NCBI RefSeq assembly: GCF_000233695.2
Contig: NZ_CM001488.1
Span: 1,476,202-1,540,201 of the forward strand
DNA: 64,000 nucleotides
From: Desulfobacter postgatei 2ac9
GTDB taxonomy: Bacteria > Desulfobacterota > Desulfobacteria > Desulfobacterales > Desulfobacteraceae
Direction of reading: 5' to 3'
Shown here piece by piece: positions 6,070 through 33,823 of the stretch. The notes below the pieces were generated by a model. That model was not told the origin of the DNA and did no database searches. It saw only the letters and a list, made by a program, of their open reading frames with translations. The translations under genes and the position numbers were made by a program. Position 1 is the first letter of the stretch; each line of letters begins with the position of its first letter.

Positions 6070-6075
6070 GGCGTG

Positions 6076-6669
6076 TCATTGGCTCTTTTTTGAAACGTTC
6101 ATGCAATGATTCCCGGATACAAGGGCCAGCAAGTTATTTCGGTGATTTAGAACGATAAACCCCATACATACAATCATCGCAGCGATTCCCGAAAAATCGG
6201 TTCCGGATATCCTGGCAAGGCCCATGCCGATAATGGCCACAAGCACCATGGAACCGGCAAAAGGCAGCCGAAAAAAAAGATATCCTGCACACCAGCCGGC
6301 AAGGGAAAGCAGTGTAAATAAAGGGGTGAGAAACAGGGACAAACCAATGAAATGGGCAACGCCTTTTCCCCCTTTAAATCCGTGGAAACAGGGGAAGCGG
6401 TTCCCAAGGAGCAGAAAAAATCCCATCCAGAGGGTTGCGGGCACAGACAGAAACCGGGAGGCAACCGCTGAAATCAGAAACGCCTTTCCCACATCGGCCA
6501 TGAGAACAAATCCGGCCCATTTCACCCCCAAGATTCTGTAAACATTGGTGGTCCCGGCGTTTTTGCTGAACAGGGTCCGGGGATCTTTTTTTGTTTTCAC
6601 CTGCAGCACAAGGATGGAAGCATTCAATGAGCCTGCGGCATAGGCAATCAGGCAGAAAAGTATGAACAT
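6076..6669 (-). CDS. plsY: PlsY-like acyl-phosphate:glycerol-3-phosphate acyltransferase
   Basis: PlsY moves an acyl group from acyl-phosphate to sn-glycerol-3-phosphate in the inner membrane, giving lysophosphatidate. The 197-residue product has the family motifs in order: a GSLN segment near the N-terminus, SKNAGTTNVYRILG, a lysine/aspartate helix, and FKGGKGVA, spread over about five membrane helices. I start at the ATG at 6669 (MFILFCLIAYAAG) because GGGAGGG lies about 9 bases upstream; an upstream ATG at 6693 lacks such a site and runs further into the preceding gene. No PlsX is visible in the window. Being in an operon with dehydratase, ACP and exporter genes suggests a specialised copy (inference). 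Confidence 0.88.
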   Translation of the reverse strand: MFILFCLIAYAAGSLNASILVLQVKTKKDPRTLFSKNAGTTNVYRILGVKWAGFVLMADVGKAFLISAVASRFLSVPATLWMGFFLLLGNRFPCFHGFKGGKGVAHFIGLSLFLTPLFTLLSLAGWCAGYLFFRLPFAGSMVLVAIIGMGLARISGTDFSGIAAMIVCMGFIVLNHRNNLLALVSGNHCMNVSKKSQ

Positions 6670-7538
6670 GAGTGGATGCCCTCCCTGATCCATGCCGGAG
6701 GGGTGATGGTTCCGCCGCTGACATCTCTCATCATTGCCCCGGATACGGTTTCACACAGATCGCCCTGCTTGTCGGTAATCCATATGTCAAACCCCAGGGT
6801 CCCGTGGGTTTGATATTGGGGGATGACCCGGGCAGTATAATCCTGATGTTCAACCGTGGGTTTGTAAATGATCCGTTTATCAAACCCCACCGGAAAGGCC
6901 ACAACGCCGAAAAACCGCTGACTCCAGACACAGCCGGCATGGAAGGCTCCATCCAGGGGAAATCCTGATCCCAGCATGGTTTTAAATGGATCATCCGGAT
7001 CATCGGGCATCGCTTTCAGTGTTGCATACGCGCCTGACCGGGCAAGCCGCAATTCATCCTTAATGGAGTGAAAGGCCGGCCCGAACGGAACCAGTTCACT
7101 GTATATGGAATCGGTTGCCACCTTAAACACGGGCTCTTCACATTCATGGGCATGGACTGGGGAGAGGTTTGGGACAGGTTCTGTTTTGGCGTAGAAGGTA
7201 GCCGTGCAATGCTCCCGGATTCTTGTCATGGCACCGTTTTTTGAGGAAAACCGGGTGGCCAGGGATAGCGAAATCCGCGTATCGTCGATGGGGCGGATAT
7301 TGCACAGCGCGTCAATGGTCTCCTGGCCGGGTTCAAGCACAAGAAATTTATTGAAGCGTGCATCCGCCATATGCCCCGGGGCAAAGGCGGAAGTGAAAAA
7401 ATCGCGTTCCCCGATTAATCCGGCCAGGATCTTTAACGCCTCCACAGCCGGAAAAACCACCTTGCCTGCAAAACAATGGTCCATGAAGTGGGGATAAACG
7501 GCTATGGTTAACGGAACCTGGGTAAAGGAGCTGTCCAT
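6648..7538 (-). CDS. PKS-type dehydratase (double hotdog)
   Basis: The 296-residue protein carries the polyketide-synthase dehydratase signature HxxxGxxxxP close to the N-terminus (HCFAGKVVFP). It has the second-half DxxxH motif in PLDGAFHAGC near residue 200, so both catalytic residues of a PS-DH double hotdog are present. It would remove water from a 3-hydroxyacyl-ACP during chain building. It is a free-standing enzyme rather than part of a multidomain synthase. Its start lies one base after the stop of the radical SAM gene, and its end overlaps plsY. A FabZ-like dehydratase is also present at 12304, so the cluster has two kinds of dehydratase. Confidence 0.75.
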   Translation of the reverse strand: MDSSFTQVPLTIAVYPHFMDHCFAGKVVFPAVEALKILAGLIGERDFFTSAFAPGHMADARFNKFLVLEPGQETIDALCNIRPIDDTRISLSLATRFSSKNGAMTRIREHCTATFYAKTEPVPNLSPVHAHECEEPVFKVATDSIYSELVPFGPAFHSIKDELRLARSGAYATLKAMPDDPDDPFKTMLGSGFPLDGAFHAGCVWSQRFFGVVAFPVGFDKRIIYKPTVEHQDYTARVIPQYQTHGTLGFDIWITDKQGDLCETVSGAMMRDVSGGTITPPAWIREGIHSCSYFSA

Positions 7539-7539
7539 C

Positions 7540-8586
7540 TCAGGTTCTGCTTGGCGGGTCTACAAATTTCAGGCTCAGGTTTTCCCCTTTTTCATACCCC
7601 ATCACCCATACGGCCAGATAGGTATCCACATAATCCAGCCAGGCCTTGAAGGTTTCAGGATCAATCGCGTGTCTGAAAAGTCTTGCCGTGACAACTGCAC
7701 TGCCGGCCGCGTAGTGGCGGCAGTCCGCACAATCGGTATCCGGCACACAGCATGCCGCGCTTCTGTCCCAGGTCAGATCTGCCCTGTATTGTCTGAATGT
7801 TTTACCCAGGCCCACATCTTCATGCGGATTCATTCTCGGATAAGAACATTGAAAAAGATCGTGCAGGGCCATCTCATGGGTATGAACAAGGATGTTATAG
7901 TGGGAGAAGAGCAGATGCTCAGGATAGGTTTCAAGCATCTCAATCATGATCTCCCTGGTTTTTGCCAGTGTCTGCCGGTTGTGCCGCAGGTCTCCATCAT
8001 ATCCCACCGGCGCGGAAAACATATTAAAGGTGAAGCGGCAGCCGTTTTCCGCAAGGATGGGGGCCACATCCCGTATCTCATCAATGTTGCTGCTGGTAAA
8101 GGTGTAGACAAATACGGCCCTGGGATCGTCTTTGTAGTTTTTGATCTGTTTTTCAAGCATGTGATCAGCCCTGCGAACGGCCTGGCTTGTCCGGTCATTG
8201 CCCCACACGGAGATGTGGATCCTGTAGCCCACACCCTCCGGTATGAATTTTAACCCATTGGATGCGATGGCGCCCAAAGGAATTTCCCGGTAACAGGTCT
8301 GCAAAAGTTCGGGAACCAGGGCGGGCTCAGCCCCTGCCAGCACAACAAAGGTGATTCCCCGTTCCTTTTCTCTGACCATCAGTTCCTGCCATGCGTCAGG
8401 ATCGTTATTCCCGGTGACAAACTGTTTGTCGCCTTCATAAAAATAACAGCCTTCACACCGGATATTGCAGCGGTTGGTCATGTCATAGGTGGATTCCCTT
8501 AGGAAAAAGTACTTTTTTACCCGCTGCCATCGGCTGCGAATCACCGGATCGGACAGAATATCTGAGAATTTCCAATATGTTTGCAT
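7540..8586 (-). CDS. Radical SAM protein, paralogue of the one at 16847
   Basis: The 348-residue protein has the cluster-binding CxxxCxxC in YDMTNRCNIRCEGCYFY and a C-terminal cysteine group (ACCVPDTDCADC). It aligns along most of its length by eye with the 16847-17845 protein: TNRCN-RC-GC, REKERG followed by a GEP or AEP motif, SNGL or TNGL, and S-WG. Where most radical SAM proteins have GGEP, this one has AGAEP. The substrate is unknown. It begins the distal part of the left arm after the ACP gene. Having two diverged copies in one cluster suggests two related radical steps, or a heteromeric pair (inference). Confidence 0.85.
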   Translation of the reverse strand: MQTYWKFSDILSDPVIRSRWQRVKKYFFLRESTYDMTNRCNIRCEGCYFYEGDKQFVTGNNDPDAWQELMVREKERGITFVVLAGAEPALVPELLQTCYREIPLGAIASNGLKFIPEGVGYRIHISVWGNDRTSQAVRRADHMLEKQIKNYKDDPRAVFVYTFTSSNIDEIRDVAPILAENGCRFTFNMFSAPVGYDGDLRHNRQTLAKTREIMIEMLETYPEHLLFSHYNILVHTHEMALHDLFQCSYPRMNPHEDVGLGKTFRQYRADLTWDRSAACCVPDTDCADCRHYAAGSAVVTARLFRHAIDPETFKAWLDYVDTYLAVWVMGYEKGENLSLKFVDPPSRT

Positions 8587-8606
8587 AGAGGGTTTTTATA
8601 TATTTG

Positions 8607-8629
8607 TTAACTTAACTTAACTTAACTTT
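8607..8629. repeat. Short CTTAA tandem repeat
   Basis: A 5-base unit (ttaac/cttaa) is repeated about four times between the ACP gene and the radical SAM gene, in the leader of the latter on the minus strand. It could vary in length by slippage and so alter spacing upstream of the radical SAM start. This is a direct sequence observation; any effect is speculative. Confidence 0.6.
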
Positions 8630-8684
8630 ATCTCTTGTTGTGGGTTGAGCCTGGGTGTTGATAGACCAAGTCAGCCCATGGCAG

Positions 8685-8945
8685 TTATAATTTGTTGTTG
8701 ATGTATTCGGCAATGAGCCGGACGTTTGTCAGTTTGGGGTAGTCATCCTCGTCAATGCGGATACCGTATTCATCCTGGATCACCAGGGCCACGGTGGCAA
8801 GATCCATACTGTCAATGCCGACTTCATCCACAAGGTCCATTTCAGGATCAAAGGTTTCGGGCGTCACATCCTCAATCATGAGTTCATCAATGATAATCCG
8901 GGTCACATTGATAATGACATCATCAATGGTTCTTACTTTGTTCAT
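8685..8945 (-). CDS. Acyl carrier protein 1
   Basis: The product is about 86 residues, acidic, with the phosphopantetheine attachment site in DEVGIDSMDLATVAL; the serine follows Asp as in standard ACPs. It would hold the growing or modified acyl chain. I start at 8945 (MNKVRTIDD) because GGAGAA lies about 10 bases upstream; an ATG six codons earlier (8963) has no such site but is possible. It is followed, after about 100 bases, by a radical SAM gene, the PS-DH gene and plsY. The other ACP (12720) has a different helix-II sequence, so the two may serve different enzymes. Confidence 0.88.
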   Translation of the reverse strand: MNKVRTIDDVIINVTRIIIDELMIEDVTPETFDPEMDLVDEVGIDSMDLATVALVIQDEYGIRIDEDDYPKLTNVRLIAEYINNKL

Positions 8946-9134
8946 TTTTAGAGTTTTCTCCATTTATATAATTTTAAAGCTTCTTAACATATTCCTGACA
9001 AGATATCCATTTCAGGATTCATGGGTCAAGGGTCATCGCATGTAAAAAATACCTCACCCCACTTGATTTTATATCCTTTACGATTCCCCCAACCCAGGAT
9101 TAACAAAACGCAATGGCAGGGATATGGCTGTTTT

Positions 9135-9962
9135 TCAGGTCAGGGTCATGCCTGTTATTTTTGCGACATAATTTTTAGTCTCCCTCGGCATCTGGCTTGG
9201 CCGGGAGTCCAGGTTCCCCATCCCCCAGTTGTAGGCGGCCAGGGCAAGGGGGACGCTTCCTTCATACCGGTCCAGCAACTGCTTCAGGTACCGTGTGCCG
9301 CCCATTACATTCTCAGTGGGATTCAGAGGGTCTTTTACCCCGAGTTCCCTTGCGGTATCCGGCATCAGCTGCATCAGCCCCATGGCCCCTTTGGGAGAAA
9401 CAGCATCGGGATTAAAGCTGCTTTCCGCTTGGATAACCGCCTTGATGAGGCCTGAATTCACCCCAAAGGTTGTGGCGGCTTTCTCAATGATTGCTTCAAT
9501 GTCAAGGCTGTCAGTCCGTTTGGCCTCTTCGGTTGTTGCGGTAACAGTTCCATTGGCTTCAATTTCCTGAAAGCGGTTTTTTGACGGTGCCTGTCGGATT
9601 TCTGACATCATTTTCCGACCGGCCGTCCGGTTGGAAAGCATCTGCTCAAGCCCGTCCATGAAAGGGGCACAAATCGGCTGATCATCCCCGTTTTCGGTCA
9701 GTATTCCCAGAAGGCTTTCATTTATCTGCATCATCATATGCCGGGACAAAACCAGGGAGAGCCTGGCGTTTAGAGAATCTGCCGCCGGGTCTTGTTCTGC
9801 TGCCTGGGCGGGGGGTGTCACCTGTTTGAGAAGATTTGAAAAAGATGCTGACCCGGGGCCCTTATTGTTTTGCAGCCCCGTTCTCCATGCTTCTCTGGAA
9901 ACCGGGTTTAACCGGGGCGAGCCCATTGAAGCGTCAAATGTCGTGTCAAATTGGATCGTCAT
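9135..9962 (-). CDS. Soluble lytic transglycosylase (SLT) domain protein
   Basis: The C-terminal 120 residues of this 275-residue protein are a lysozyme-like SLT domain: the catalytic Glu in AVIQAESSFNPDAV, then KGAMGLMQLMPDTAREL and LALAAYNWGMGNL. It cleaves peptidoglycan glycan strands. The first 150 residues are of low complexity and show no clear signal peptide, which is unusual for a periplasmic enzyme and recalls flagellum- or secretion-associated transglycosylases. It sits between the AT-rich insert and the ACP gene with gaps on both sides, and I see no link to lipid synthesis. It may simply be a bystander. Confidence 0.85.
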   Translation of the reverse strand: MTIQFDTTFDASMGSPRLNPVSREAWRTGLQNNKGPGSASFSNLLKQVTPPAQAAEQDPAADSLNARLSLVLSRHMMMQINESLLGILTENGDDQPICAPFMDGLEQMLSNRTAGRKMMSEIRQAPSKNRFQEIEANGTVTATTEEAKRTDSLDIEAIIEKAATTFGVNSGLIKAVIQAESSFNPDAVSPKGAMGLMQLMPDTARELGVKDPLNPTENVMGGTRYLKQLLDRYEGSVPLALAAYNWGMGNLDSRPSQMPRETKNYVAKITGMTLT

Positions 9963-10680
9963 GATTTCTTAACCTGTAAATTGTTCCGGCTTGCTTGAGA
10001 ACGGCCGGCGGACGGATTCATTACTGAAGGCCGGGCCTCTTTCAAACCAGTTACCTCTCGGAGAAAAGCAAGAAGCATGCCTTTTATCCAGGCAGGGGGA
10101 TTAGCCGGTGACGGCTATAGCTGAACACAGGCAACGGTGGCAGGATATCTTCAGCCTGATCATTCAGCCGGATTCAATTTGAAGAAAATTTATGTGTCAG
10201 AACTTTTACGCACCCGGCAGATAGACAGAATGCTCGCCTTTGGGGGGATTCAAACAGAGGCAGGAGTATAATATATAAAATTTGGCCTGGTTCAATTCTC
10301 CAGGAGACAAGGTAACAGTTTTTGGTAACACTTTAACTTGCCATAAAATGTAACCTACTTAATTTGCATATTAAAATGATTTTTAAGAGAGTTATGTCTG
10401 CCTAATATCTGCAACCTTGTTTTGAACCAGGCCTAAAATTTAATCTTGAGTTTCCCTGCCGGGGATGTTTAATCTCCAATTAAGTTGCTTGGTTTCTGTT
10501 TTTCTTTTAGGTTTACATTCTAAAATAGAATGGTTAATGTTTTTGTTGTAGGAAGATTAGGTTATGTGATCTTAACTATAGTCGACCAATAACAACGAAT
10601 ATTAAAAGTGTTCCAATTGATTTTGGAAATTTTTTTAGTGTTAAGTATAAATAATTGTAAATAAGGTAAAGGCAAGACCG
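9963..10680. other. Non-coding stretch leading into an AT-rich insert
   Basis: No convincing gene is seen in these 718 bases. Base composition changes within it: up to about 10300 it resembles the flanks, and from about 10330 it is distinctly AT-rich, continuing so to about 12300. I saw no terminal inverted repeats, tRNA end or direct repeat marking the change. The AT-rich part probably contains the promoter of the gene at 10681, but no clear -35/-10 pair could be chosen. Confidence 0.5.
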
Positions 10681-11403
10681 ATGCCAAGACCGACTAAAAT
10701 AACACCAGATCCAATAATTGATGCTGTTGTAGAATTTCGTTTTGAAAGTGAAATCCCACCTGATGCCATTTTAGGCATGCTGTTTAGCGTTGTTCGAAAC
10801 GATTTTCCAAATTTCAACAAATTACCAATAGCTGATATTCCAGGGGTGCTAAGGCAGAAAGACCCACAATTAAAATTTGCGCCATGTTATCAATCTATTT
10901 CAAATGGATATCGATTAAATGTTGGCCCCAATGTGATATCCTTGGGGAACCCAGGAAATTATGTCGGTTGGAAAGATAATTTTTATCCATTTCTACAAAG
11001 TATTATTAAACAATTAGAAAAATCCGGAATTGTAAAAAGATTCACTCGGATTGGAATTAGATATATCGACTTTTTTGAGGCTGATATTTTTGAAAAAAAA
11101 ATTACGCTTTCAATTAGTCTTAATGATGCCCCTCTTAATGCAAAGCAGATTACTGTTAGTACTATTTTTGAACAAGAAGAATTAGTTACTAGAGTAAACA
11201 TTCAAAACAACTCAACTGTTATCTCAGGTGATAATCGCCGTGTTGGATCTATCATAGATACAGATACTTTCTTCGAACCAAAACAGGATATTTCTTTTAG
11301 CGACCTAATTTCATTACTGGATAAACAACATGAAGTTTCATTGTCAGTATTTTTCAATTTGCTTCACCCTGAGTTTCTAAAGACACTTAATCCGGAGTAT
11401 TAA
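10681..11403 (+). CDS. TIGR04255-like sporadically distributed protein
   Basis: The 240-residue product begins with a conserved-looking strand (PDPIIDAVVEFRFE) and has IGIRYIDFFEADIF in the middle, features I associate with the TIGR04255 family, a patchily distributed family of unknown function. No catalytic motif or membrane segment is evident. It is AT-rich and on the plus strand inside an otherwise minus-strand, GC-richer biosynthetic arm, so it was probably acquired separately. The next gene starts 3 bases after its stop, and the pair looks like a two-gene module. The family call is from memory of the pattern and is moderate. Confidence 0.6.
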   Translation: MPRPTKITPDPIIDAVVEFRFESEIPPDAILGMLFSVVRNDFPNFNKLPIADIPGVLRQKDPQLKFAPCYQSISNGYRLNVGPNVISLGNPGNYVGWKDNFYPFLQSIIKQLEKSGIVKRFTRIGIRYIDFFEADIFEKKITLSISLNDAPLNAKQITVSTIFEQEELVTRVNIQNNSTVISGDNRRVGSIIDTDTFFEPKQDISFSDLISLLDKQHEVSLSVFFNLLHPEFLKTLNPEY

Positions 11404-11405
11404 AA

Positions 11406-12028
11406 ATGTATAATACAGAATTGTACGAGGATTTATTGCAGGGTCAGGGACAATACCAATACTCCCTTAAAAAAACAACAAAAACGATGGTGATCTGTGG
11501 CGCTCTTTTGTTAAATACGAGTGTTCCTCTTGTTTCGTACCCGTTATTGGGTAACTTTGCTATGAATAAAGATGGAAGTGATGGATATACGTTTAATAGT
11601 CGTTACTATGACAATGTGAATACATGGTCCGATATTAAGGTAGAATATATTCCCTTATTGAGGGTGAATATAGCTATTGGGTAGTATTAGGGAATACTTG
11701 TGATCTGTCAAGAAGTTTACCTATCAATGAAGACTCGCCGATACCACAACTCACTCATATTTCTCCCCTCATCCCAGTTCCGCAAGAGACTCCAGAGAGT
11801 ATTCTTGATAATTTAAAAAAGTATAAACTTTTTAAGAGAGTGTTTATTCCAAGATGGAATGATGAAAAAAACGATTTTTATATTGATTTAACAATAATAA
11901 ACTCTATAGAAAGACAGTGTTTAATGAACCATTCTGAAGTGTTGGCAAGGCTAAATTTTAAAACTTGGCTTTTGCTCCATTCCTGTCTTGTTCGATATAT
12001 TGCTCGAGATGATGGTCGCCATGATTAG
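11406..12028 (+). pseudogene. Frameshifted partner gene of the TIGR04255-like protein
   Basis: The first frame starts at 11406 (MYNTELYEDLLQGQGQ) and stops at 11684. The frame of 11840-12028 is open back to about 11639 and reads SLIEGEYSYWVVLGNTCDL across the first frame's end. Overlaying the two gives one continuous-looking protein if one base is shifted around 11650-11670. A third piece, back in the first frame (from 12009, ending at 12140), also looks protein-like, so a second shift may exist near 12010. This is either a decayed gene or a sequencing error. The TCDL-containing segment resembles a motif seen in hypothetical proteins, and I assign no function. From 12141 to 12303 I see nothing coding. 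Confidence 0.6.
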
Positions 12029-12303
12029 CAATACATCTTATTCATCAGTGGACTACATCAGTATCGAAATATCCCCAACATGGCATTTAGAACCCCGGAC
12101 TATTATTAATAGTTTTGATCATCAAGCCTTTAAAAAGTAAAGGCAGGTCCTATACACAACATGTTTATAAATACTTAAATCCAGGGTTTTAGGCTCATCC
12201 ACAATATGTAGGTGTAGCTTCTTACTATTTAAAGAGAAGGATTATAGTTTATACTGTATCTTCCGCATGAGCCGTTCGACATTGATATGAAACTGCAGGA
12301 ACG

Positions 12304-12723
12304 TTACATGCGATTGCCCTGTTCCGGAGGCCTGACTGTCTGGCCAATACGGATATCAATAAATCCAGTACAGACAACCTTCTGGTCCGCCGTAAGCTGA
12401 TATTCAAAACGATTCGGAGTTTTTTTCGCCGGCTTTATCAAAACTGAAATGGGGGTGTTCGGTCTGATCAATTGCTTGAATCTGACCCGCTTGAACCCTT
12501 CAAGTTTCACTCCGGGTCCCATGGTCCGCTGCATCAGGTCAAAAATCATGCTCATCTGGGCAATGCCCGGGACAATGGGGTTGTCCGGGAAATGCCCGTC
12601 AAACCAAGGCGACTCGGGGGCAAAGATCGTCCGGGCTGTGATGATTGACGCTTCTGTCATGCTGATCTTACTGACCTCATATCCGGGTCCACTTCGATCC
12701 GCCATCTCTACGGATGGGGTCAT
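12304..12723 (-). CDS. FabZ/FabA-like 3-hydroxyacyl-ACP dehydratase (hotdog)
   Basis: The 139-residue protein has the hotdog dehydratase active-site region WFDGHFPDNPIVPGIAQM, with the catalytic His and the GxFP pattern typical of FabZ. In FabZ the helix then carries a Glu; here that position reads MSMIFDLMQ, so an acid is present but not at a position I can align firmly. Activity could therefore be dehydration or hotdog binding. Its ATG overlaps the preceding ACP stop (12720-12723, ATGA), implying coupled translation. After its stop the AT-rich insert begins. Confidence 0.78.
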   Translation of the reverse strand: MTPSVEMADRSGPGYEVSKISMTEASIITARTIFAPESPWFDGHFPDNPIVPGIAQMSMIFDLMQRTMGPGVKLEGFKRVRFKQLIRPNTPISVLIKPAKKTPNRFEYQLTADQKVVCTGFIDIRIGQTVRPPEQGNRM

Positions 12724-12983
12724 GACCTTGAGTTACCATGTTCGTTAACATACCGGGCCAGGGTATCAAGGGTGGCAAATACGGTTTCTCCAAGCTCCTT
12801 GTTGTCAATGACCACCCCGTAATCGTTTTCCAGCATCATGACCATCTCCAGGACATCAATGGAATCTAGTCCCAAAGGACCGCCAATCAGCTGGTCCTGT
12901 TCATTGATATCTTCGGGTGTTACATCCATCAGTCCCAGTGTGTCGACAATTTTGTGCTTGAGTTCTGAAATCAGCTTTTCCAT
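12720..12983 (-). CDS. Acyl carrier protein 2
   Basis: An 87-residue ACP with the phosphopantetheine serine in GGPLGLDSIDVLEMVMML. The overall acidic, four-helix pattern and length match stand-alone ACPs of type II synthases. It is directly followed by the FabZ-like gene with a 4-base overlap and preceded, 50 bases upstream, by the DAK2-DegV-radical SAM gene. It probably carries the intermediates used by the ketosynthases and dehydratases of this cluster; partner specificity versus the ACP at 8685 cannot be told from sequence alone. Confidence 0.9.
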   Translation of the reverse strand: MEKLISELKHKIVDTLGLMDVTPEDINEQDQLIGGPLGLDSIDVLEMVMMLENDYGVVIDNKELGETVFATLDTLARYVNEHGNSRS

Positions 12984-13033
12984 ATTCCATCCAATACAAT
13001 AAGCATTATGGGTTTTATTATTTAGTGTGTAGA

Positions 13034-16000
13034 TTAAAGGCCTTCAAAGGTGTTCATCTCTTCCTGTTCTTTTAACACATCTTTATAAATGCCCTCCCAC
13101 CCCTTTTTTTTAAGGACCCTGGCATGCTGCTGTTGCAGTAATGGTTTGAACATGTATGTCCAGATGCCGGTCCATAATTTGCCGGTCCCCTTGGCCCTGG
13201 CCGACGGGTCCCACCATCCCAGAACGGTCTGGCGGTGATACCAGAACAGGTATTGCAGTTTGTCGGCACTCAGGTGACGGGTTTTGACATTGGCCCACAG
13301 GCCGTTGTATTTTTTCAAATCCAGGGCATTGGTCACAAGGCCCTGGTCCATGAGCTGTTCCCTCATGCCTGTTTTGGGATAGGGGGTCAGGATCTGGCAA
13401 TAGGCGGCATCGGCATTAATCTCTTTTAAAAAACGGTAATTTTCAATGATGGCGGTCTCGTCATCATCGGGGAATCCGAATATCAGGCCGCCGATGACCA
13501 TCAGGCCGTGTTTCTGGCACAATGCCACGGCTTTTCTTGAATATTCCACAATGTTTCCCTTGCCTGCCACGGCAAGGTTTGCTTTTGAGACATTTTCGAT
13601 CCCTAAGAATACGGACTTAAACCCAGCCTGGGCCATTTTACGAATCATGCCCTCATTGGTGGCCATGGTCAGGCTGTCGGCCTGGACTACCAGTTTCAGG
13701 CGCCGGTATCCTTGCTGAATGATGGCATCGCACAGCCGGATGACCCTGTCCGTGTCCAGGACCAGGTTGTCATCCACAATAAAGGCCAGCCGGGTTTTTT
13801 TATTATAGTAAATGTCATCAAGGTCGGCAATGACCCTGTCAATGGGATAGGTTCTGAAGGTGCGGCCGTACATGTGCTTCATGCTGCAGAAATTGCAGGT
13901 TCGGGTGCATCCCCTTGAGGTCTCCAGCACCTCGGCCTTCATGTTCATCACATGGTATCCCCAGGTCAGCCGCCGTTTGTCCCGGATGGGCGGTTTCAAC
14001 TTGGAAAGATCCTGCAGTTCACCCATGGGATTGGTGATGAATCCGTCTCCATCCCTGTAGGTCAGGGAGGGGATGTCCTGGAAGGTGTCTTGGCCGTCCA
14101 GGGCTTCCACCAACCGTTTAAAAGCCGTCTCTCCTTCTCCCTGGATAATGAAATCAATGAGTTTGCCTTCCGGGGATTTTGTGATCTCCTGGGTCATCAG
14201 GGTGGCATGGTATCCCCCGACCACGATTTTGGCCGTGGGGCGGATTCGTTTGATCAGCCGGATAATCCGGCAGCAGGTGTCCCATTGCCATGACATGGCT
14301 GAAAGCCCCACGATATCCGGCGCAAGCCTTGTCAGCTGTTTCGTCAGATAGGCGCGGATGGCCCGGCGTTTTCGGATCAGGTCAATGATTCTGACCTCAT
14401 GGCGTTCATGGATGTTGCCCCCGATGCTGGCAATCCCGAGGTTGGGGAAGTGCACGGCATTCTGGTGAATGACCAGGGGCGCTACATCGGGCATGGACAT
14501 CAGGAGTACTTTCATGGCAGACTCTCCTTGGAAAAAGGGATAATGACGATTGAAAAGATTTTCATGGCAATAGCCTCTATCTGTGTCCCCCGGGGCCAGT
14601 TCTCCGGGTAAAAATGCCATTCCCCACGTGCCCGGCCCCATGTGAACACCTGAGGTCAGAGACAACGGGACAAGGGAAAGACGCGCCCGGGGACAGGCCT
14701 GACGTATTTGGGGCATGACCGAGGCCTCCACCCATGCCCTGTTGTCCGAATATTCCAGAACTATCCTTGGTGAAGCGGTTTTTTCAAACTCGTGTTGAAG
14801 CCGGTTGACGGCATACCGGATCTGGCTGTCACTGTTTCTCACGGTTGCGACTTTTTGGGCGCCGTTTGCCCTGGGGCTGATGACGGGCCGGATGCTGAGA
14901 AGATCACCCGCTACACCGCCTGTTTTGGACATCCTGCCACCCATGGCCAGGTATTTCAGCTGGTTGAGGAAAAGCAGTTCGTCGCAAGCCCCGATAATTT
15001 TTACCGCATGGGCTGCCAGTTCCGCCGGATCCTTCAGGGTTTCGGCTGCCAGGGCAACGGTTTCGGCAATCAGCCCGAGCCTGCCGGATGCCGCACCGGT
15101 ATCCACAACCTGCATGCGTTCTGAAAGGTCGTTGTCCGCAACCCACTGGACGGCAACCTCATAATTGCCTGTATACACAGACCCCACACACAGGTAAAGC
15201 ACCCGGTCATATTGTTCCAAGGCCTTCCTGAAGGTTTCCCGGCGCTGGAATACCGAGGCCTGGGCCGTCATGACCCTTTTACCCCGGGCCATGTCCGCAT
15301 AGATTTGGGCCGGGTCTGCCAGGGTTTCAGGAGACCCGCCGCCGTCTGTCACGATGAAACTGTCCATGAGCGTGATGCCAAGCGCTGCGGCCCGCTCAAG
15401 GGTGATGGAGCCTGCCGCATCCGTGATGATGCCCACCGTGTCAGGGGTTGCCCGGGCCGGTGCTTTTTCCGGCCGGGTTGTGATGGGTTCATCATCCCAT
15501 GCCGTGATCTCCCCTAGCTCAGACACCCGCCGCTTAAGCGCCTCCCTGTCCCGGGTGTGCACATGGATTTTCAGGGATTGATCGGTTTGTGCCATGACAA
15601 TACTGTCACCAAGGGTTTTAATCAGTGCGTCCGGGGCCCCGGCACCTTGATCCATCCGGATCTGTAAATCCACACAAAACGCCGGTTCTGCGGGTTCCGT
15701 GTATCCGGCAGAGACACAGAGATGATCCTTGAAGCTTTCCATGACCGGGATACATTGATCCTGCCGCTCTTCAAGGGCTTTGAAAAATCCTTCCAGGAAC
15801 AGGAACATCCCTAACACTCCTGCATCCACGACACCTGCTTTCTGCAGGGCGGGCAGTCGGGTAACGCTTTGGGCCACACTCTGTCTGAGTACTTCGGTCA
15901 GTTCGTCGGTGTCAAAGAATGCTTCGTGCAGCCGGGCGTCACTTGCCTTGTCATCAAAAAAACGGGCCTGGCTTTCAAACAGATCCAGCATGGTACCTGG

Positions 16001-16411: not shown

Positions 16412-16415
16412 GAGG

Positions 16416-22852: not shown

Positions 22853-24304
22853 CTAACCCTTGATGACGGCAAGCGGAATCAATCGGGCCACTTTTTTGGC
22901 GATGCCTGCGCCGTGAACCACCTCGATCACCCGGTCTACGTCTTTATAGGCGCTCGGTGCTTCTTCGGCCAGGCCGGACATGCTGCTGACCCGCACATGG
23001 ATGCCGCAAGCCTCTAATTCTTCGCGCAGTTTGGCACCCCGTACAGCTTTTTTGGCCTTGCTGCGGCTGATTACTCGCCCGGCCCCGTGGCATATCGACC
23101 CGAAGGTTTGCGTCATGGAACCTTCCGTGCCGACCAGCACCCAACTGGCGGTTCCCATTGAGCCGGGTACCAGAACCGGCTGGCCGATGTCACGGTATAT
23201 CCCGGGCAGTAGCGATGATCCGGGGCCAAAGGCGCGTGTTGCGCCTTTGCGATGAACGCATACCTTTATCCGGCGCCCGTCTACCTCGTGTTCTTCGATT
23301 CTGGCCATGTTGTGAGCGATGTCGTACACCTGGTACACGTGGTGATTTTTTACCTTTCCGGCCAATACCTGTTCAAAGCTGCGGCGGATATGATAGGTGA
23401 GCAGTTGGCGGTTGACAAAGGCATAGTTGGCGGCGGCATTCATTGCTGCCAAATAATCTTGTCCTTCCGGGCTGCTGAGGGGTGCGCAAACCAGTTCCCG
23501 GTCCGGCAAACTAAACCCGTATTGTTGAATCGTTTTTTGAAGCCGTTTGACATAATCACTGCATACCTGATGTCCAAAGCCGCGTGAGCCGGAATGGATC
23601 TGGACGGTCACCTGGTTGTGGAAGATGCCCATGCGCGTGGCGACCGGTTCGTCGAAAATCCGGTCGACCATATCTATCTCAATGAAGTGGTTGCCTGAGC
23701 CCAGGGTGCCGACCTGGTCCTGGCCTCGATTTTTGGCTCTGTCACTGACCTTGCCTGGATCGGCGCCCTCCAGGCAGCCACCCTCTTCGGTTCGTTCCAG
23801 GTCGGACTCGGTGGCATAGCCACGTTTCAAGGCCCATTTTGCGCCTTTTACGACCAAGAGATCCAGTTCACCCGGCTTAAGCTTTATATGGCCGCCTTTG
23901 CCGAGGCCGCTGGGGCAGTTGGCGTAGAGCGCCGACGCCAAATCCTCCAGATAAGGGGCTGCTTCTTCTTTTTCCAGTTGTGTTGCCAGCAGGCGCACGC
24001 CGCAGTTGATATCATAGCCCACACCGCCGGGCGAGATAATTCCATCAGGGAGTTGGGTGGCGACCACGCCGCCGATCGGGAAGCCATATCCCTGATGCAT
24101 GTCGGGCATGGCCAGTGCGTACTTGACAATTCCCGGCAGGGTGGCTGTATTGACCAGTTGTTCCAGACTTCGATCGCCCTGTATAGCCTTTTGCAGTTCC
24201 GAATCCGCGTAAAACCGGGCCGGCACGCGCATATCGGCACGAAACGACCTGGGGATTTCGTACAGGTATTTGTTGATTTGCTTAAAATCATGGCTGCTGA
24301 TCAT
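22853..24304 (-). CDS. rtcB: RNA-splicing ligase RtcB
   Basis: RtcB joins RNA 2',3'-cyclic phosphate or 3'-phosphate ends to 5'-OH ends using GTP and Mn2+. The 483-residue length is normal. Metal and nucleotide residues are visible in order: [38 protein letters not shown], and the guanylylated-His motif in [15 protein letters not shown]. Its activator archease is encoded just upstream on the same strand with a 30-base gap, so the two form an operon. No rtcR-type sigma-54 activator gene is seen nearby. Confidence 0.95.
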
Positions 24305-24334
24305 TTTACACCTTCTTTGTAATTTGCCGTATGA

Positions 24335-24784
24335 TTATACGTCAAACACCACAGTTGCTTCCACCCCTTTTTTTGTCTCGACAATTTTCAGGTTGTGATA
24401 GGTTACCGCCTTTATATGCTTTTTTAAGCGTGAGGCGTGACCGCCGTGCATAACAGCCTGTAAATGGGTCGGCGTGACCTTGTACAGGTCAAACCGCCGG
24501 AAGATGAGCATTTGTGTTTCAGCCCAATAGGCCAGTTCGTTTAGCCATTCTACCAGCAAACTTTCGGCATCTATGGCCGCCAATTCAAACTGTTTTTCTA
24601 TATTATCAGGAATAGAGGAAAGATCGAAGGCGATCAGGCTGTTCATGCCGCGAGCTGCATTCAGCAGTAACTCGTTCAGGTTTTGCCCCCAAACGTGAAG
24701 GGCACAGTCGGCGGTATGCTCCATTTCTTCAAATCCTGTATCATAGAAGGCATGAAAGGATTCCGGCAAAGATTTTGTCGGCAT
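24335..24784 (-). CDS. Archease, RtcB activator
   Basis: The 149-residue protein has the archease core: GFEEMEHTADCALHVWG near residue 20, a middle LLVEWLNELAYWAETQ, and a C-terminal KAVTYHNLKIVETKKG with the closing acidic VVFDV. Archease speeds RtcB guanylylation and supplies metal-binding acidic residues. It is the first gene of the two-gene unit with rtcB. The N-terminus starts with about 15 extra residues before the domain, which is not remarkable. Confidence 0.92.
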   Translation of the reverse strand: MPTKSLPESFHAFYDTGFEEMEHTADCALHVWGQNLNELLLNAARGMNSLIAFDLSSIPDNIEKQFELAAIDAESLLVEWLNELAYWAETQMLIFRRFDLYKVTPTHLQAVMHGGHASRLKKHIKAVTYHNLKIVETKKGVEATVVFDV

Positions 24785-25089: not shown

Positions 25090-26190
25090 GTGGATAAAAA
25101 ATTTGATTCCGGCAAAAAAGAGGTGCTCAGGGCACGTTATGAGGCCCAGAAAATTGCCTTTGCACCTGTGGTGTTCCAAGCGGTACGCCTGCTAAGGGAT
25201 CTGAACATTCTCAAAGTTATTGAAGCGGCCGGAAAGCCCGGGCTTAAAATCGAAGCGATTGCAGAACAAACAGGCGTCTCTTGCTACGGGGTGACCATTC
25301 TCTGTGAAACCGGACTTAGCCAGGATGTTCTGGAGATCAAGGATGATTGCTATAGACTAACCAATGTCGGACATTTTCTGCTCAATGATGAATTAACCAA
25401 AGTGAACATGGATTTTATCCATGACGTCTGCTATGAGGGACTTTTTCGCTTGGATCAGGCGATTGCAACAGGGAAGCCTTCCGGATTGGAAGTGTTTGGC
25501 AAGTGGTCCACAATTTACGAAGCATTAAGTCATCTGCCTCCCAAGGTTCAAAAAAGTTGGTTTGCTTTTGACCACTTCTACAGTGACTCTGCCTTTCCCG
25601 ACGCCTTACCCTATGTATTTGACCTTAAACCGAAGTCACTTCTGGATATCGGCGCAAATACCGGAAAATTTGCCATCCAATGTGTTCGCCATAATCCGGA
25701 TGTCCATGTCACTATGATGGATTTGCCCGGGCAGCTTGCCAAAGCAAAAGAGAATATTGCGGCACAAGGTTTCGGCAATAGAATCACCGAATATCCTATT
25801 TGTGATCTGCTCGATTCCAAAGCCCCGTTTCCCGGCGGTTTTGATGCGGTATGGATGAGTCAGTTTCTGGTCTGTTTTTCCGAGGCGCAGATTTCAAGTT
25901 TGCTTGAGCGGGCAAAGGAGGCATTGGCCCCCCAAGGCAACTTGTTCATTCTGGATACATACTGGGATCGCCAAAAACATGAAATCGCTGCATATTGTCT
26001 AATCAATTCTTCACCCTATTTTACAGCCATGGCAAATGGGAACAGCCGTATGTACCGGTTTTCGCAGATAGAATCTCTCATCACAAAGGCGGGTTTTCGG
26101 ATTGAATCGGTTGATGACGGCCTTGGAATGGGCCATACCCTTATAAGATGCCGGACAAATTCAAATAGTGCCTGTCTGCCTGATTGTTGA
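25090..26190 (+). CDS. O-methyltransferase-like SAM-dependent methyltransferase
   Basis: The 366-residue protein begins at a GTG with GAGGTG upstream. An N-terminal helical, winged-helix-like dimerisation part (about residues 15-110, LKIEAIAEQTGVSCYGVTIL) precedes a class I methyltransferase core with SLLDIGANTGKFAIQC and VTMMDLPGQLAKAKENI. The layout matches acetylserotonin/hydroxyneurosporene-type O-methyltransferases. It is a single gene between archease and the cytochrome, close to the lipid cluster, and might methylate its product, but no overlap or operon ties it there. Its substrate cannot be inferred. Confidence 0.8.
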   Translation: MDKKFDSGKKEVLRARYEAQKIAFAPVVFQAVRLLRDLNILKVIEAAGKPGLKIEAIAEQTGVSCYGVTILCETGLSQDVLEIKDDCYRLTNVGHFLLNDELTKVNMDFIHDVCYEGLFRLDQAIATGKPSGLEVFGKWSTIYEALSHLPPKVQKSWFAFDHFYSDSAFPDALPYVFDLKPKSLLDIGANTGKFAIQCVRHNPDVHVTMMDLPGQLAKAKENIAAQGFGNRITEYPICDLLDSKAPFPGGFDAVWMSQFLVCFSEAQISSLLERAKEALAPQGNLFILDTYWDRQKHEIAAYCLINSSPYFTAMANGNSRMYRFSQIESLITKAGFRIESVDDGLGMGHTLIRCRTNSNSACLPDC

Positions 26191-27839: not shown

Positions 27840-29228
27840 ATGAAAATCGATGCATTGCATTGTTTGACTGAACAGGCCGTGGCTGACCTTTTGACTTTGA
27901 AGATGGTCGGTGCGCGTGACAGATCTTTTTGCGGGAAATGCACCTATGGGGATATCCATGCCATGGCCCACGTCATTCTTGACAGGTGTCCTGAAACCCA
28001 TCCGCAGAGGGGATACCTTGCCATATTTACCATGAATCGGGCTGTCATAGCTGCCGCAATTGTTGCGGCGCTGGCCGGCGGGCCCATATTGATTCTGCCC
28101 CATGATATCTCGGACGGGGCGCTTATGGATCTGGCAAGTGACCCGGAACATACATGGGTGGTGACGGATCCGGACAGGACGTTGCCTGATCGGTTTAAAG
28201 AACTTTTTGTTACCCCGGACGGCCACAGCCGTACTCCCATACCCTTAAACGCCGGCATTGACCCGGGTGCGCCCCTGCTTAAACTTTATACCGGCGGCTC
28301 AACAGGGACGCCGACCATATGGACAAAGACCGTGGAGAATATCATGGGCGAAGCCCTGTTTCATGTGGGTGAGCATCAGATCTCCTGTGATGACGTGGTG
28401 GTCGCCACGGTGCCGCCCTATCATATATACGGTCTGCTGTTTTCCGTGGTTGCCCCTTTGCTGGCAGGCGCAAGGGTGGTTGATCAAACCTGCCGATTTC
28501 CCCATGAGATTGTCAATACGGTGACGGATACGGCTGCAACCATTCTTGTCAGCGTGCCGGCCCATTTCAGGGCCTTGAAAGATCATGATTTTTCCGGTCA
28601 TAACCTGCGTCTGGCTTTTTCTTCGGCAGGCGTACTGGATGAGGCGGATGAAAGAAATTTTCGCCAACGCAATAACGTTTTTGTGATGGAGGTTTACGGT
28701 TCAACAGAAACCGGCGGCATCGCCTTTAGATGCCGGGGGCGAGGCGAGACTTTTTTTTCCCCTTTTGATGTCATTGAAACCCGTATTGCAGAGGAATCCT
28801 TAAAAATCCGTTCCCCTTTTATTTCGTCTGAAATTAGTCGGAATGATGCGGGTTTTTATCTGGTGCCCGACAGGGTAAAAAAATGTTGCGTAAACCGCTT
28901 TGCCATCCTTGGCAGATCTGATGCTGTTGTGAAAATAGCCGGCCTCCGGGTTGACCTGGACCGGGTCGGGTCGGTTTTAAAGGCAATGGACGGTATCAGG
29001 GATGCGCTTGTTCTGGCAAAGGCCGTTCCCCGGGGCAGGGCCTTTGATATCTGTGCGTTTGTGGAAGGGAACTGCACCCCTGGGGATATCCGGCAATTTC
29101 TTTCAGGTCGCCTTGAAGCGGCAGCCCATCCGCGGTGGATCAAGGTTGTCGATCAAATACCCATGACCCGTTCCGGCAAGTATGACCGCGCTGCTGTTGC
29201 GGCCTTGTTTGAACCGGAGGCCGGCTAA
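27840..29228 (+). CDS. AMP-dependent acyl-ligase (adenylate-forming)
   Basis: The 462-residue protein has the adenylate-forming core motifs: YTGGSTGTPTIWTKT (P-loop), EVYGSTETGG, GRSDAVVKIAGLRVD and the C-terminal lysine motif MTRSGKYDR. It activates a carboxylic acid as the adenylate and passes it to a thiol, either CoA or an ACP. It resembles the AMP-ligases that open aryl-polyene and xanthomonadin-type clusters. It is the first gene of the right arm, 6 bases before the ketosynthase at 29235. Priming of one of the two left-arm ACPs with an unusual starter acid is the likely role. The acid is not identified. Confidence 0.85.
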   Translation: MKIDALHCLTEQAVADLLTLKMVGARDRSFCGKCTYGDIHAMAHVILDRCPETHPQRGYLAIFTMNRAVIAAAIVAALAGGPILILPHDISDGALMDLASDPEHTWVVTDPDRTLPDRFKELFVTPDGHSRTPIPLNAGIDPGAPLLKLYTGGSTGTPTIWTKTVENIMGEALFHVGEHQISCDDVVVATVPPYHIYGLLFSVVAPLLAGARVVDQTCRFPHEIVNTVTDTAATILVSVPAHFRALKDHDFSGHNLRLAFSSAGVLDEADERNFRQRNNVFVMEVYGSTETGGIAFRCRGRGETFFSPFDVIETRIAEESLKIRSPFISSEISRNDAGFYLVPDRVKKCCVNRFAILGRSDAVVKIAGLRVDLDRVGSVLKAMDGIRDALVLAKAVPRGRAFDICAFVEGNCTPGDIRQFLSGRLEAAAHPRWIKVVDQIPMTRSGKYDRAAVAALFEPEAG

Positions 29229-29234
29229 GGAAAA

Positions 29235-30470
29235 ATGCACCGCAGAGTCGTTATAACAGGGTATGGCGTCATCTCCCCCATCGGGGATACGGATGATGAG
29301 ATCATCCGGCATCTGACCCAAGGGATTTCCGGGGTTAAAGAGCTTAAAGATGACGGATTTCTGTCCGGGTTTATACAGTCCGGTGTTTATGGCAGCATTG
29401 ATTATCCCAAGACATATCACTTTGAACGAAACCATCGAAAAACCATGGGACCGGTGGCTTTTGTTGCCTGCGAGTCGGCCCGGCGGGCCATTGAACAATC
29501 GGGTCTGGATAAGGAATTTTTGACCTCGGGACAGGTTGGTGTGGCTTTCGGCTCCATCCACGGTAGCCCGTTTGTCCAGCGCGAGATCATGAAAACCTAT
29601 TTTAAGGGCCGTAAAGAGGGTGATCCAGGCATCAATGCGGCCGATTTTTTAAAATCCATGGCCCACACCACGGCCGTTAATATTACAAAGATGTTCGGCA
29701 TATCAGGCCGGGTCATCAGTCCCTGTACGGCATGCACCACCAGCAGCCAGTCCATTGGTTTCGGATACGAAACCATTCGCTTCGGCATGCAGGATGCCAT
29801 GGTGTGCGGCGGTGCCGACGAGTATGACACCTCAACCGTGGCTGTTTTTGATAACCTTCGGGCCTGTTCCACCCGGTTCAACAACACCCCCCACCTCACT
29901 CCGCGTCCTTTTGACAGTCTGCGCGACGGTCTGGTGGTGGGAGAAGGCGCCGGCGCCCTTGTGCTGGAGTCCCTGGACCACGCGAAACGTCGCGGCGCAA
30001 CCATTCTGGGTGAAGTTGTGGGGTTTGCCTCCAACAACAACGGGGGGGACATGATTCTGCCCAACCTGGCCGGGATCACCCAGACGCTGACCCTGGCCCT
30101 GGCTGATGCGCAAATCGCCGGCCGGGATGTGGATTTCATCAGCGCCCATGCCACAGCCACCCGCCAGGGTGACACCATTGAGGCAAAAGCCATCCATAAT
30201 GTGTATGGAGAAAAACCCCGGGTGACGGCCCTGAAAAGCTACATGGGCCATACCATTGCCGCCTGCGGGGCCATTGAGACCATCATTACCCTGATGATGA
30301 TGAAGCACGGGTTTATCCCGGCCACCCTCAATCTTGACACCGTGGATGAATCCTGTGCCATGATCAACCATACAAGGCAGTTGCTGGAGGAGAAGATCCA
30401 TACGGCGTCGGTTCAGAACTTTGCCTTTGGCGGGGTGAATACTGCCTTAATATTGAGAAAATTCAACTGA
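29235..30470 (+). CDS. FabF-like beta-ketoacyl-ACP synthase A
   Basis: A 411-residue ketosynthase with the active Cys in SPCTACTTSSQSIG, the first His in SAHATATRQGDTIEA (ATAT instead of the usual GTGT) and the second in KSYMGHTIAACGA, so the catalytic triad is complete. It condenses malonyl-ACP with an acyl-ACP. AAGG lies just before the ATG. Its TGA overlaps the ATG of the acyltransferase gene by one base. The altered loop around the first His suggests an unusual substrate, but this is inference. Confidence 0.88.
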   Translation: MHRRVVITGYGVISPIGDTDDEIIRHLTQGISGVKELKDDGFLSGFIQSGVYGSIDYPKTYHFERNHRKTMGPVAFVACESARRAIEQSGLDKEFLTSGQVGVAFGSIHGSPFVQREIMKTYFKGRKEGDPGINAADFLKSMAHTTAVNITKMFGISGRVISPCTACTTSSQSIGFGYETIRFGMQDAMVCGGADEYDTSTVAVFDNLRACSTRFNNTPHLTPRPFDSLRDGLVVGEGAGALVLESLDHAKRRGATILGEVVGFASNNNGGDMILPNLAGITQTLTLALADAQIAGRDVDFISAHATATRQGDTIEAKAIHNVYGEKPRVTALKSYMGHTIAACGAIETIITLMMMKHGFIPATLNLDTVDESCAMINHTRQLLEEKIHTASVQNFAFGGVNTALILRKFN

Positions 30471-31312
30471 TGAACCCTCAATCTTCAAACGCCGTGAATG
30501 CAACGGAAACCAGGGGGTTCACTTTTCTCTCTTTTACCCGGGATCTGATCATTACGCTGCTGCTCTGGGGCTATTTTATTTTTGGATTTCTTCTGTTTTT
30601 CTCCCCGTTTTACCTGATCGTCTTTTTTTGCCCGTCCATGCGTGAATCGGCTATCCAATCTCTTAATTGTCTGTTTTACAGAGGTTTTTTTCTTCTGGTG
30701 CGTATGCTTATGCCGGGCGTTGGCCTGCATATTGCCCCGGAGGTCAAAAATCTTGAAAACTGCATTATTGTGGCCAACCATGTCTCCTATCTGGATCCAT
30801 TGATGATGATCGCTTTGTTCAGGCGTCATAAAACCATTGTCAAGAGCACCTTTTTCAAGGTGCCGGTGTTCGGCTGGGTGTTACGGGCGGCAGGGTATAT
30901 CCCGTCCATGCCCACGGGGCGGCTGTCCAGTCTGATGGTGCGGCAGACCACAACCCTTGCCCCCTTTCTTGAAAAGGGCGGGATTTTTTTTGTATTTCCC
31001 GAAGGCACCCGGAACCGCAACGCCGGAGAGGGTACTCTGGCATTTCACAGCGGTGTGTTTAAAATGGCAAGGCTTTGCAGCGCACCCATAAGTGTGCTGG
31101 TGATCCGCAATACCGACAAACTGTTCACACCCGGGCGGTTTTTATTTCATACCGGTTTTTCCGGGACCATCAGCGTTGAACTTGCCGGTACGATCCAGCC
31201 GGATTATGATAAAGAAAAGGTTTCTACGGCATGGCTCATGGAACAGGCCGCAAGGATTTTAAGTAAAAAACAAAGGACATCTCCTTGGGATCATCACACA
31301 GACAAGCCGTAA
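30470..31312 (+). CDS. PlsC-like 1-acyl-glycerol-3-phosphate acyltransferase
   Basis: The 280-residue protein has an N-terminal hydrophobic region (about residues 25-55) and the acyltransferase motifs NHVSYLDPL (HX4D) and FPEGTRNRN. This family puts the second acyl chain on lysophosphatidate at the inner face of the inner membrane. It lies between two ketosynthase genes with overlapping ends, so it is an integral part of the operon. Along with PlsY at 6076 it gives the cluster both acylation steps for phosphatidate. Wax-, glycolipid- or ornithine-lipid-type acceptors are alternatives. Confidence 0.86.
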   Translation: MNPQSSNAVNATETRGFTFLSFTRDLIITLLLWGYFIFGFLLFFSPFYLIVFFCPSMRESAIQSLNCLFYRGFFLLVRMLMPGVGLHIAPEVKNLENCIIVANHVSYLDPLMMIALFRRHKTIVKSTFFKVPVFGWVLRAAGYIPSMPTGRLSSLMVRQTTTLAPFLEKGGIFFVFPEGTRNRNAGEGTLAFHSGVFKMARLCSAPISVLVIRNTDKLFTPGRFLFHTGFSGTISVELAGTIQPDYDKEKVSTAWLMEQAARILSKKQRTSPWDHHTDKP

Positions 31313-32535: not shown

Positions 32536-32553
32536 AAGAATAGAGATAAGACC

Positions 32554-33819: not shown

Positions 33820-33823
33820 CAGT

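Follow-up and report, generated by a model that had tools for sequence, protein, structure and literature searches.

A Desulfobacter gene cluster with a predicted one-piece fatty-acid kinase and a dedicated PlsY may assemble its own lipid

How the unusual acyl chains of ladderane-type and aryl-polyene-type gene clusters are carried into membrane lipids is unsettled. The question is raised anew by a stretch of 64,000 nucleotides from Desulfobacter postgatei 2ac9 (the window; positions 1476202–1540201 of contig C1, NZ_CM001488.1, in a single-contig genome of 3,974,658 bases), in which a first-pass annotation had recognized the domains of a fatty-acid kinase (Fak), the acyltransferases PlsY and PlsC and two thioesterases, and from them had proposed a complete acyl-phosphate route to phosphatidate. 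Our analysis supports that proposal. We consider it probable, at roughly 0.62, that the cluster holds a dedicated lipid-assembly line for its own unusual acyl chain, a reading that rests on gene content, protein families, active-site residues, co-inheritance, the absence of PlsX and the presence of a PlsB-family protein elsewhere in the genome, and in which the catalytic steps, the sequence in which they follow one another and the passing of the acyl-phosphate from kinase to PlsY are predicted. The annotation had placed all of these genes inside one cluster. The genes form two groups, one on the minus strand (1161–20135), to which the kinase, thioesterase and PlsY genes belong, and a separate one on the plus strand (27840–36409), in which the PlsC-like gene sits. 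Papers are cited by PubMed Central accession, each for an excerpt of its text.

In the route that we favour, the chain would be built on the cluster's own acyl carrier proteins (ACPs) and released as a free acid by the thioesterase encoded at 16416–16853. The FakB domain of the kinase would hold the free acid while the FakA domains phosphorylate it with ATP, and PlsY (6076–6693) would transfer the acyl group from the resulting acyl-phosphate to glycerol-3-phosphate (G3P). The PlsC-like protein (30470–31312), or possibly an LpxL-like acyltransferase (35297–36409), would attach a further chain, and glycosyltransferase and MMPL proteins would complete and export the lipid. If this is true, the thioesterase–kinase–PlsY–PlsC module is a concrete chemical answer for this type of cluster, a dedicated Gram-negative use is added to those of fatty-acid kinases together with a Fak made in one piece, and the lipid-attachment step of such clusters becomes testable with purified proteins.

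The window encodes a predicted one-piece fatty-acid kinase

The kinase gene (13034–16411, minus strand) encodes a fusion protein of 1125 amino acids that is 86% identical, in the best segment, to that of the named relative Desulfobacter vibrioformis. The DAK2 and DegV domains described in the annotation are present (Dak2 at residues 81–209, E = 2.4e-9; DegV at 326–602, 8.3e-37), with a FakA-like_M domain between them (243–303, 9.4e-8). That description left unmentioned the C-terminal half, a B12-binding radical SAM enzyme (B12-binding domain at 655–767, 2.2e-18; Radical_SAM at 830–994, 5.5e-13). The kinase part comprises residues 1–615 (bases 14567–16411) and the B12-radical-SAM part approximately residues 631–1125. 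A dihydroxyacetone kinase, which the annotation had named as the alternative for the DAK2 part, was rejected: the listed matches are to FakA/YloV models (TIGR03599, 2.5e-32; FakA_VfrB, 1.3e-15; both under the naming cut-offs) and include no dihydroxyacetone-kinase family, the solved relatives of the kinase part are FakA, FakB and Streptococcus suis FakA (7W7H), and the FakA middle domain is present with its triad of Cys, His and His. The DegV part, for its part, spans positions 2–279 of the 280-position DegV profile.

Active-site residues were read from an alignment of 41 rows (the window protein and those of 40 loci; five genomes appear twice, leaving 36 distinct proteins, and gaps count as misses). 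The triad of the middle domain, FakA_L, is kept as C246 (41/41), H283 (41/41) and H285 (40/41). The FakB domain keeps T382 and S411 (40 rows each), R493 (41) and H590 (40), which we take to be the counterparts of Thr61, Ser93, Arg170 and His266 of Staphylococcus aureus FakB1, the carboxylate and cap network; the annotation's check for a fatty-acid pocket in the DegV part thus comes out in its favour. The nucleotide and Mg residues of FakA_N, namely N36, D42, D44, T45, N97 and D196 (Asn32, Asp38, Asp40, Thr41, Asn82 and Asp185 in S. aureus; PMC9136124), are kept in 40–41 of the 41 rows.

The third domain of S. aureus FakA, FakA_C, is FakB-like, has no tunnel and binds FakB (PMC9136124). No FakA_C domain is among the listed profile matches of the window protein; the DegV/FakB domain comes straight after the middle domain, in place of a FakA_C docking domain and a separate FakB, and it is the one DegV match in the whole genome. 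With a full FakB in the position of FakA_C and no second DegV protein, the simplest reading is that residues 1–615 form a self-contained, one-piece Fak. This predicted enzyme resembles the FakA and FakB proteins of S. aureus, S. suis and Bacillus subtilis (YloV/DegV) in its DAK2 domain, Cys-His-His middle and DegV-type acid-binding domain, and differs from them in being one chain, in carrying a full FakB instead of FakA_C and, in this genus, in its fusion to a B12-radical-SAM enzyme.

The cluster PlsY belongs to a distinct lineage

The product of the PlsY gene (minus strand; the annotation's start, an ATG at 6669, is also possible, and 6693 is used here) matches PF02660 at 4.2e-32, as the annotation had claimed, and scores 88.1 bits against an NCBI PlsY cut-off of 137.2. 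It is the sole PlsY of the genome. The family matches of the kinase fusion, PlsY and the PlsC-like protein are all far above chance level. In a tree (treekit), PlsY proteins of this dedicated type stand apart from 19 canonical PlsY proteins and the A. aeolicus chain with support of 100/100; those of two genomes, G077 and G400, are assigned to the type by score only. All 26 dedicated-type proteins examined keep N37 and the G3P-pocket residues S35, R45, K104, S142, H177 and N180, whose A. aeolicus counterparts provide the clamp on the G3P phosphate and the contacts to its 2-OH group (PMC5700162). The window protein is thus like A. aeolicus PlsY (5XJ5) in its family and its G3P pocket, and unlike it in belonging to a lineage of its own and in having Asn at the position of His92. 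Two of the genomes with this type, G210 (locus L073) and G423 (L103), encode it outside the cluster. In G210 a PlsB-family gene is found some 4 kb upstream of it, and genes for a nucleotidyltransferase/APH kinase, a DapB-like protein and a solute-binding protein stand between the two.

A thioesterase adjoins the kinase

The end of the thioesterase gene (minus strand) and the kinase gene are 4 bases apart, and the start of plsY lies within the end of the gene ahead of it, which encodes a PS-DH-type dehydratase (6648–7538; PF14765, 8.8e-7); this gap and this overlap make joint expression of the genes likely. PS-DH adjoins PlsY on the same strand, with a gap of at most 233 bases, in 18 of 25 PlsY loci. 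In 23 of 37 kinase loci a thioesterase gene is no more than 200 bases away from that of the kinase (two of these pairs are read across a cut between neighbouring regions). The window thioesterase is of the 4HBT type and YbgC/FadM-like (4HBT_2, 1.8e-11; 44.4 bits for the YbgC/FadM subfamily, under a cut-off of 68.7), and a rough, self-devised active-site pattern is present in 13 of 32 homologous loci. The second thioesterase that the annotation had counted is unsupported. The small hot-dog protein at 12304–12723 (minus strand) fits, by profile, the FabA/ApeI-type dehydratases; its best solved match is 6qsr, which we take to be an ApeI-type dehydratase.

The PlsC-like protein was identified correctly (PF01553, 1.5e-22) and holds the sequences NHVSYLD and FPEGTR, corresponding to the NHX4D and EGTR motifs. 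It scores 64.4 bits for TIGR00530 (cut-off 102.95), and NHX4D is kept in all 13 loci homologous to its gene. For the LpxL-like protein (plus strand; PF03279, 1.6e-15), an HX4D string turns up in no more than 8 of the 26 loci homologous to its gene; neither this count nor that for the thioesterase pattern is given weight here.

Several precedents for such a route come from Firmicutes. A thioesterase and Fak together supply acyl-phosphate with TesE in Enterococcus faecalis and TesS in Streptococcus pneumoniae (PMC12288450), and S. aureus lacking PlsX regains growth through mutations in fabF or fadM, Fak being the proposed route for the acid set free, although the authors argue against FadM thioesterase activity as the cause of the rescue (PMC13245860). 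B. subtilis FakAB has been coupled in vitro to PlsY and PlsC, including the E. coli enzymes (PMC13400652). As with TesE, TesS and FadM (PMC12288450, PMC13245860), thioesterase and Fak could replace the function of PlsX in the window. In Firmicutes, however, this is a recycling or suppressor route, whereas the window has adjacent genes inside a biosynthetic cluster. The cluster looks like a Firmicutes-type thioesterase–Fak bypass made permanent for one chain. A search of the open-access literature found no paper whose title or opening abstract lines describe this module.

In Desulfobacter, where PlsX was not found, PlsY and the kinase tend to occur together

A search for PlsX gave no hit in the 19 genomes of the genus, the window genome among them, in 38 genomes of the genus, family and order, or in 17 genomes of a second same-order set (the window genome is in both sets). 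A PlsB-family protein occurs in 17 of the 19 genus genomes, the exceptions being a 56%-complete genome (none) and the fragmented G402 (a weak piece). The PlsB-family protein of the window genome, encoded elsewhere, scores 423.9 bits against an NCBI cut-off of 618.5 that none of 50 genomes reached. PlsY is present in nine of the 19: in all eight that have the kinase and in one of the 11 that do not (G402, on a 7.4-kb contig that reads ACP1–rSAM_A–PS-DH–PlsY–GT25–MMPL and then ends). The two genes lie 5–19 kb apart in seven of the eight genomes; the eighth, G400, is fragmented. Neither gene was found in ten of the 19 (two of the ten are only 56% and 74% complete) or in the six family members that belong to other genera. 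PlsY and the kinase thus occur jointly in this PlsB-type group.

The annotation had reasoned that its proposal would be undermined if PlsX were absent and this PlsY were the only one in the genome. Literally this is the case, but the objection loses its force, since a PlsB-family protein is encoded elsewhere and both PlsY and the kinase are missing from ten of the 19 genomes of the genus. For the same reasons the window PlsY looks accessory, and a housekeeping role for it was rejected.

The same association is seen across the phylum. As a marker for the cluster we used rSAM_B, a radical SAM protein (16847–17845, minus strand, assigned by profile), which is found at 68–78% identity in 28 of 395 phylum genomes. 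The kinase occurs in all 28 of these and, among the other 367, a kinase match was found in only two (G009 and G348); the kinase survey scored two candidates per genome and the rSAM_B survey up to five, and absences depend on this first-look ranking. The dedicated, low-scoring PlsY type (102–130 bits in this sample) is present in 11/11 of the 30 kinase genomes that lack PlsX and in 5/19 of those that have it. Canonical PlsY was found in none of the 11, all of which have a PlsB-family match, and 13 of the 19 have canonical PlsY only. In G301, which has PlsX and canonical PlsY, the gene order is the same and the spacing from PS-DH to the glycosyltransferase gene (GT25) is too tight for PlsY. Among additional same-order kinase genomes, G424 and G430 have the dedicated type, whereas G425 lacks PlsX and has canonical PlsY only. 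PlsX is present in each of ten genomes in which a low-scoring PlsY, classed by score, occurs without a kinase match. The co-occurrence survey that the annotation had called for therefore favours a link between Fak and PlsY, in the genus (8/8 against 1/11) as in the phylum.

The kinase is fused to a B12-radical-SAM enzyme in Desulfobacter

At E ≤ 1e-60, the kinase half of the fusion matches 30 of the 395 phylum genomes and the B12-radical-SAM half 19, the window genome included in both; the B12-radical-SAM matches in G191 and G236 are only 38–40% identical and that in G164 is partial. The fusion was found only in the genus Desulfobacter, in all eight genomes that have both halves (the G400 copy is split over contigs). 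Another 15 genomes encode close relatives of both halves as separate genes, on the same contig and approximately 10 kb apart or less in seven. A fusion that unites genes of the same clusters suggests that the kinase and B12-radical-SAM steps are linked, and it hints at the chain on which the B12-radical-SAM enzyme acts. A fuller account, which we put forward tentatively and regard as rather unlikely in its entirety, is that anaerobes hard-wired a Gram-positive-style Fak–PlsY route into the cluster for its private lipid assembly, with the kinase in one piece and a PlsY whose phosphate hole is rebuilt being added mainly where there is no PlsX, and that in Desulfobacter the FakB domain doubles as a carrier, from which the fused B12-radical-SAM enzyme takes up the bound chain and remodels it ahead of phosphorylation and attachment to glycerol.

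Does the dedicated PlsY draw on the kinase?

A number of observations weigh against the route that we favour. All 26 dedicated-type PlsY proteins, those of G210 and G423 included, have Asn at the position of A. aeolicus His92, whereas all 19 canonical PlsY proteins examined across the phylum have His. In the A. aeolicus enzyme, acyl-phosphate is contacted by two side chains, those of His92, which binds its phosphate, and Thr41, and an H92N variant has 6.9% of its activity left with a normal Km for G3P; among PlsY homologues the position is His in 97.8% and Asn in 0.5% (PMC5700162). Thr41 is replaced by S, V, A or M in seven of the 26. Asn92 may adapt the site to an acyl-phosphate of an unusual kind or may mark an altered donor. 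Neither the kinase nor PlsX was found in G210 or G423. Within the phylum sample, the kinase and dedicated PlsY genes lie less than 25 kb apart in only five of 16 genomes (G000, G009, G047, G085 and G134); they are about 90 kb apart in G348, 1.3 Mb apart in G132 and on different contigs in nine. G014 (L037), a one-contig genome, has the kinase and PlsX, and PlsY was not found in it. The neighbour of the kinase gene is an AMP ligase, not a thioesterase, in 9 of the 37 kinase loci, and neither of these in five. Finally, the genomes compared share descent, for which the Fisher values obtained here are uncorrected.

To these are added 19 genomes of the order that have canonical PlsY (by score; His92 was read in seven) and no PlsX; DegV was searched in 11 of them and not found in 10. 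An acyl-phosphate source of another kind may thus exist in the order, and we have dropped the argument that a PlsY without PlsX proves a Fak. Among the genes scanned beside such PlsY genes (part of the genes at six loci) there was no candidate for that source. Order genomes with canonical PlsY and no PlsX include those at L104–L109 and L123 (G161, G036, G072, G333, G254, G295 and G425). A LytB-UbiA fusion protein adjoins canonical PlsY in three same-order genomes (L104:3390–5126, L106 and L107; the L104 protein was family-scanned).

In one rival reading, the kinase does make acyl-phosphate and the Asn92-type PlsY uses another donor or source, the kinase product going elsewhere, for example into recharging of ACP or another acyl transfer. 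The replaced His92, the occurrence of the type without the kinase in G210 and G423, and the order genomes with canonical PlsY but neither PlsX nor, mostly, DegV all favour such independence. Against it, PlsY and the kinase are gained and lost together within the genus, the G3P-pocket residues are intact in 26/26, and all 11 kinase genomes without PlsX have the dedicated PlsY; we judge it unlikely.

We consider it improbable that the kinase is an everyday Fak that scavenges or recycles acids for general phospholipid synthesis and sits in the cluster by chance. The Fak enzymes in the literature consulted, as excerpted, all act on common fatty acids that are exogenous or recycled, in keeping with such a role, but a scavenging enzyme fits poorly with a kinase that accompanies rSAM_B in every one of 28 genomes, turns up in two others of 367, and was not found, any more than the cluster was, in 11 genomes of the genus. 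Least probable is a FakB domain that serves mainly as a carrier from which the fused B12-radical-SAM enzyme receives the chain, with kinase activity secondary: the fusion itself points that way, as does a close B12-radical-SAM homologue, not fused, that 15 of the 29 other kinase genomes encode, but the kinase residues are near-invariant, in free-standing proteins too, and the fusion is limited to this genus.

Ladderane-type and aryl-polyene-like features of the cluster

For the identity of the chain we consider a ladderane-type and an aryl-polyene-like reading, and rank neither. By gene content, the window resembles the clusters described in Kuenenia and Desulfotalea by Rattray in 2009, which share with it ketosynthase paralogues, radical SAM genes, an MMPL-like protein, an AMP ligase and a glycosyltransferase; Desulfotalea contained C31 polyunsaturated hydrocarbons and lacked ladderanes (PMC2649909). 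The terms DAK, DegV and glycerol-3-phosphate do not occur in the excerpt of that paper. Clusters of the antiSMASH 'ladderane' type, of unknown function, have been recorded in Desulfobacterota (PMC9902471). A related cluster in G430 has a separate gene for a full-length 'ladder' protein of the B12-radical-SAM kind, which scores 390.3 bits for TIGR04072 against a cut-off of 360 (L102:1949–3298), between the genes for KS-CLF and those for dehydratase and ACP1. In contrast to ladderane-type clusters, the B12-radical-SAM half of the window fusion reaches only 92.7 bits for this model, and no phytoene-desaturase-like gene was found at E 1e-3 among the 34 window open reading frames scanned.

Several components are like those of aryl polyene (APE) clusters: two ACPs, KS-CLF, the ApeI-like dehydratase, the thioesterase, PlsC-like and LpxL-like acyltransferases, the MMPL exporter, a coumarate-ligase-like AMP ligase and a FlxJ-like methyltransferase. 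In a relative, G311, an aromatic amino acid lyase is encoded directly upstream of the thioesterase and kinase genes (L063:9042–12716), which suggests that the chain made by this relative's cluster starts from an aryl unit. The dehydratase, ligase, methyltransferase and lyase point to aryl polyenes and against a ladderane. PRK09185 and PRK09116, which we take to be APE ketosynthase models, are the best or near-best models for KSn and KS1, below cut-off. Unlike APE clusters, the window cluster has several radical SAM enzymes, and a dedicated ketoreductase was not found among the window open reading frames scanned, whereas the other components compared (ACPs, KS-CLF, ApeI-type dehydratase, ligase, thioesterase and exporter) were found by profile. 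In E. coli, thioesterase-aided release of aryl polyenes and their attachment by ApeD and ApeJ have been proposed, the anchor being unknown at the time (PMC8253772); a Fak–PlsY module like that of the window is not mentioned for APE in the excerpt of that paper.

Other genes of the cluster and its surroundings

Comparison of the window proteins with 69 loci, some of them overlapping, revealed two recurrent blocks whose gene content varies, some loci missing some genes. The first reads ACP2–KS-CLF / dehydratase–ACP1–rSAM_A–rSAM_B–KS2–KS3–PS-DH–(PlsY)–GT25–MMPL–methyltransferase, with PlsY present in part of the loci. The second consists of a thioesterase or AMP ligase, the kinase, an LpxL-like protein, KS1, PlsC, a B12-radical-SAM protein and a SPASM protein.

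On the minus strand of the window, in order of coordinate, a SPASM/radical SAM protein (1161–2231, by profile), whose gene adjoins the B12-radical-SAM gene in several relatives, is followed by an MMPL-type transporter fused to a C-terminal methyltransferase domain (2228–5473, by profile); the MMPL and methyltransferase pair is found again in many of the compared loci. Next are a family 25 glycosyltransferase (5356–6069; PF01755, 2e-8) and, beyond PlsY and PS-DH, the radical SAM protein rSAM_A (7540–8586; PF04055, 2.9e-6, below the curated cut-off), whose CxxxCxxC motif is kept in all 18 homologous loci. rSAM_A and rSAM_B are distant paralogues with 25% identity. The two acyl carrier proteins, ACP1 and ACP2, are encoded at 8685–8963 (PF00550, 2.4e-9) and 12720–12983 (PF00550, 6.7e-8), and the gene of highest coordinate in the group encodes KS-CLF, a fused ketosynthase and chain-length-factor-like protein (17949–20135, by profile). 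The plus-strand group begins with the AMP-dependent acyl ligase (27840–29228), for which the nearest NCBIfam model is a 4-coumarate ligase, and contains the ketosynthases KS1 (29235–30470), KS2 (31285–32535) and KS3 (32554–33819), all assigned by profile.

The region that separates the minus-strand group from the plus-strand group contains genes for an RtcB RNA ligase and archease (22853–24784) and that for the FlxJ-like O-methyltransferase (25090–26190; 480.7 bits, cut-off 560), a family whose name we presume, from the family names, to be tied to flexirubin genes.

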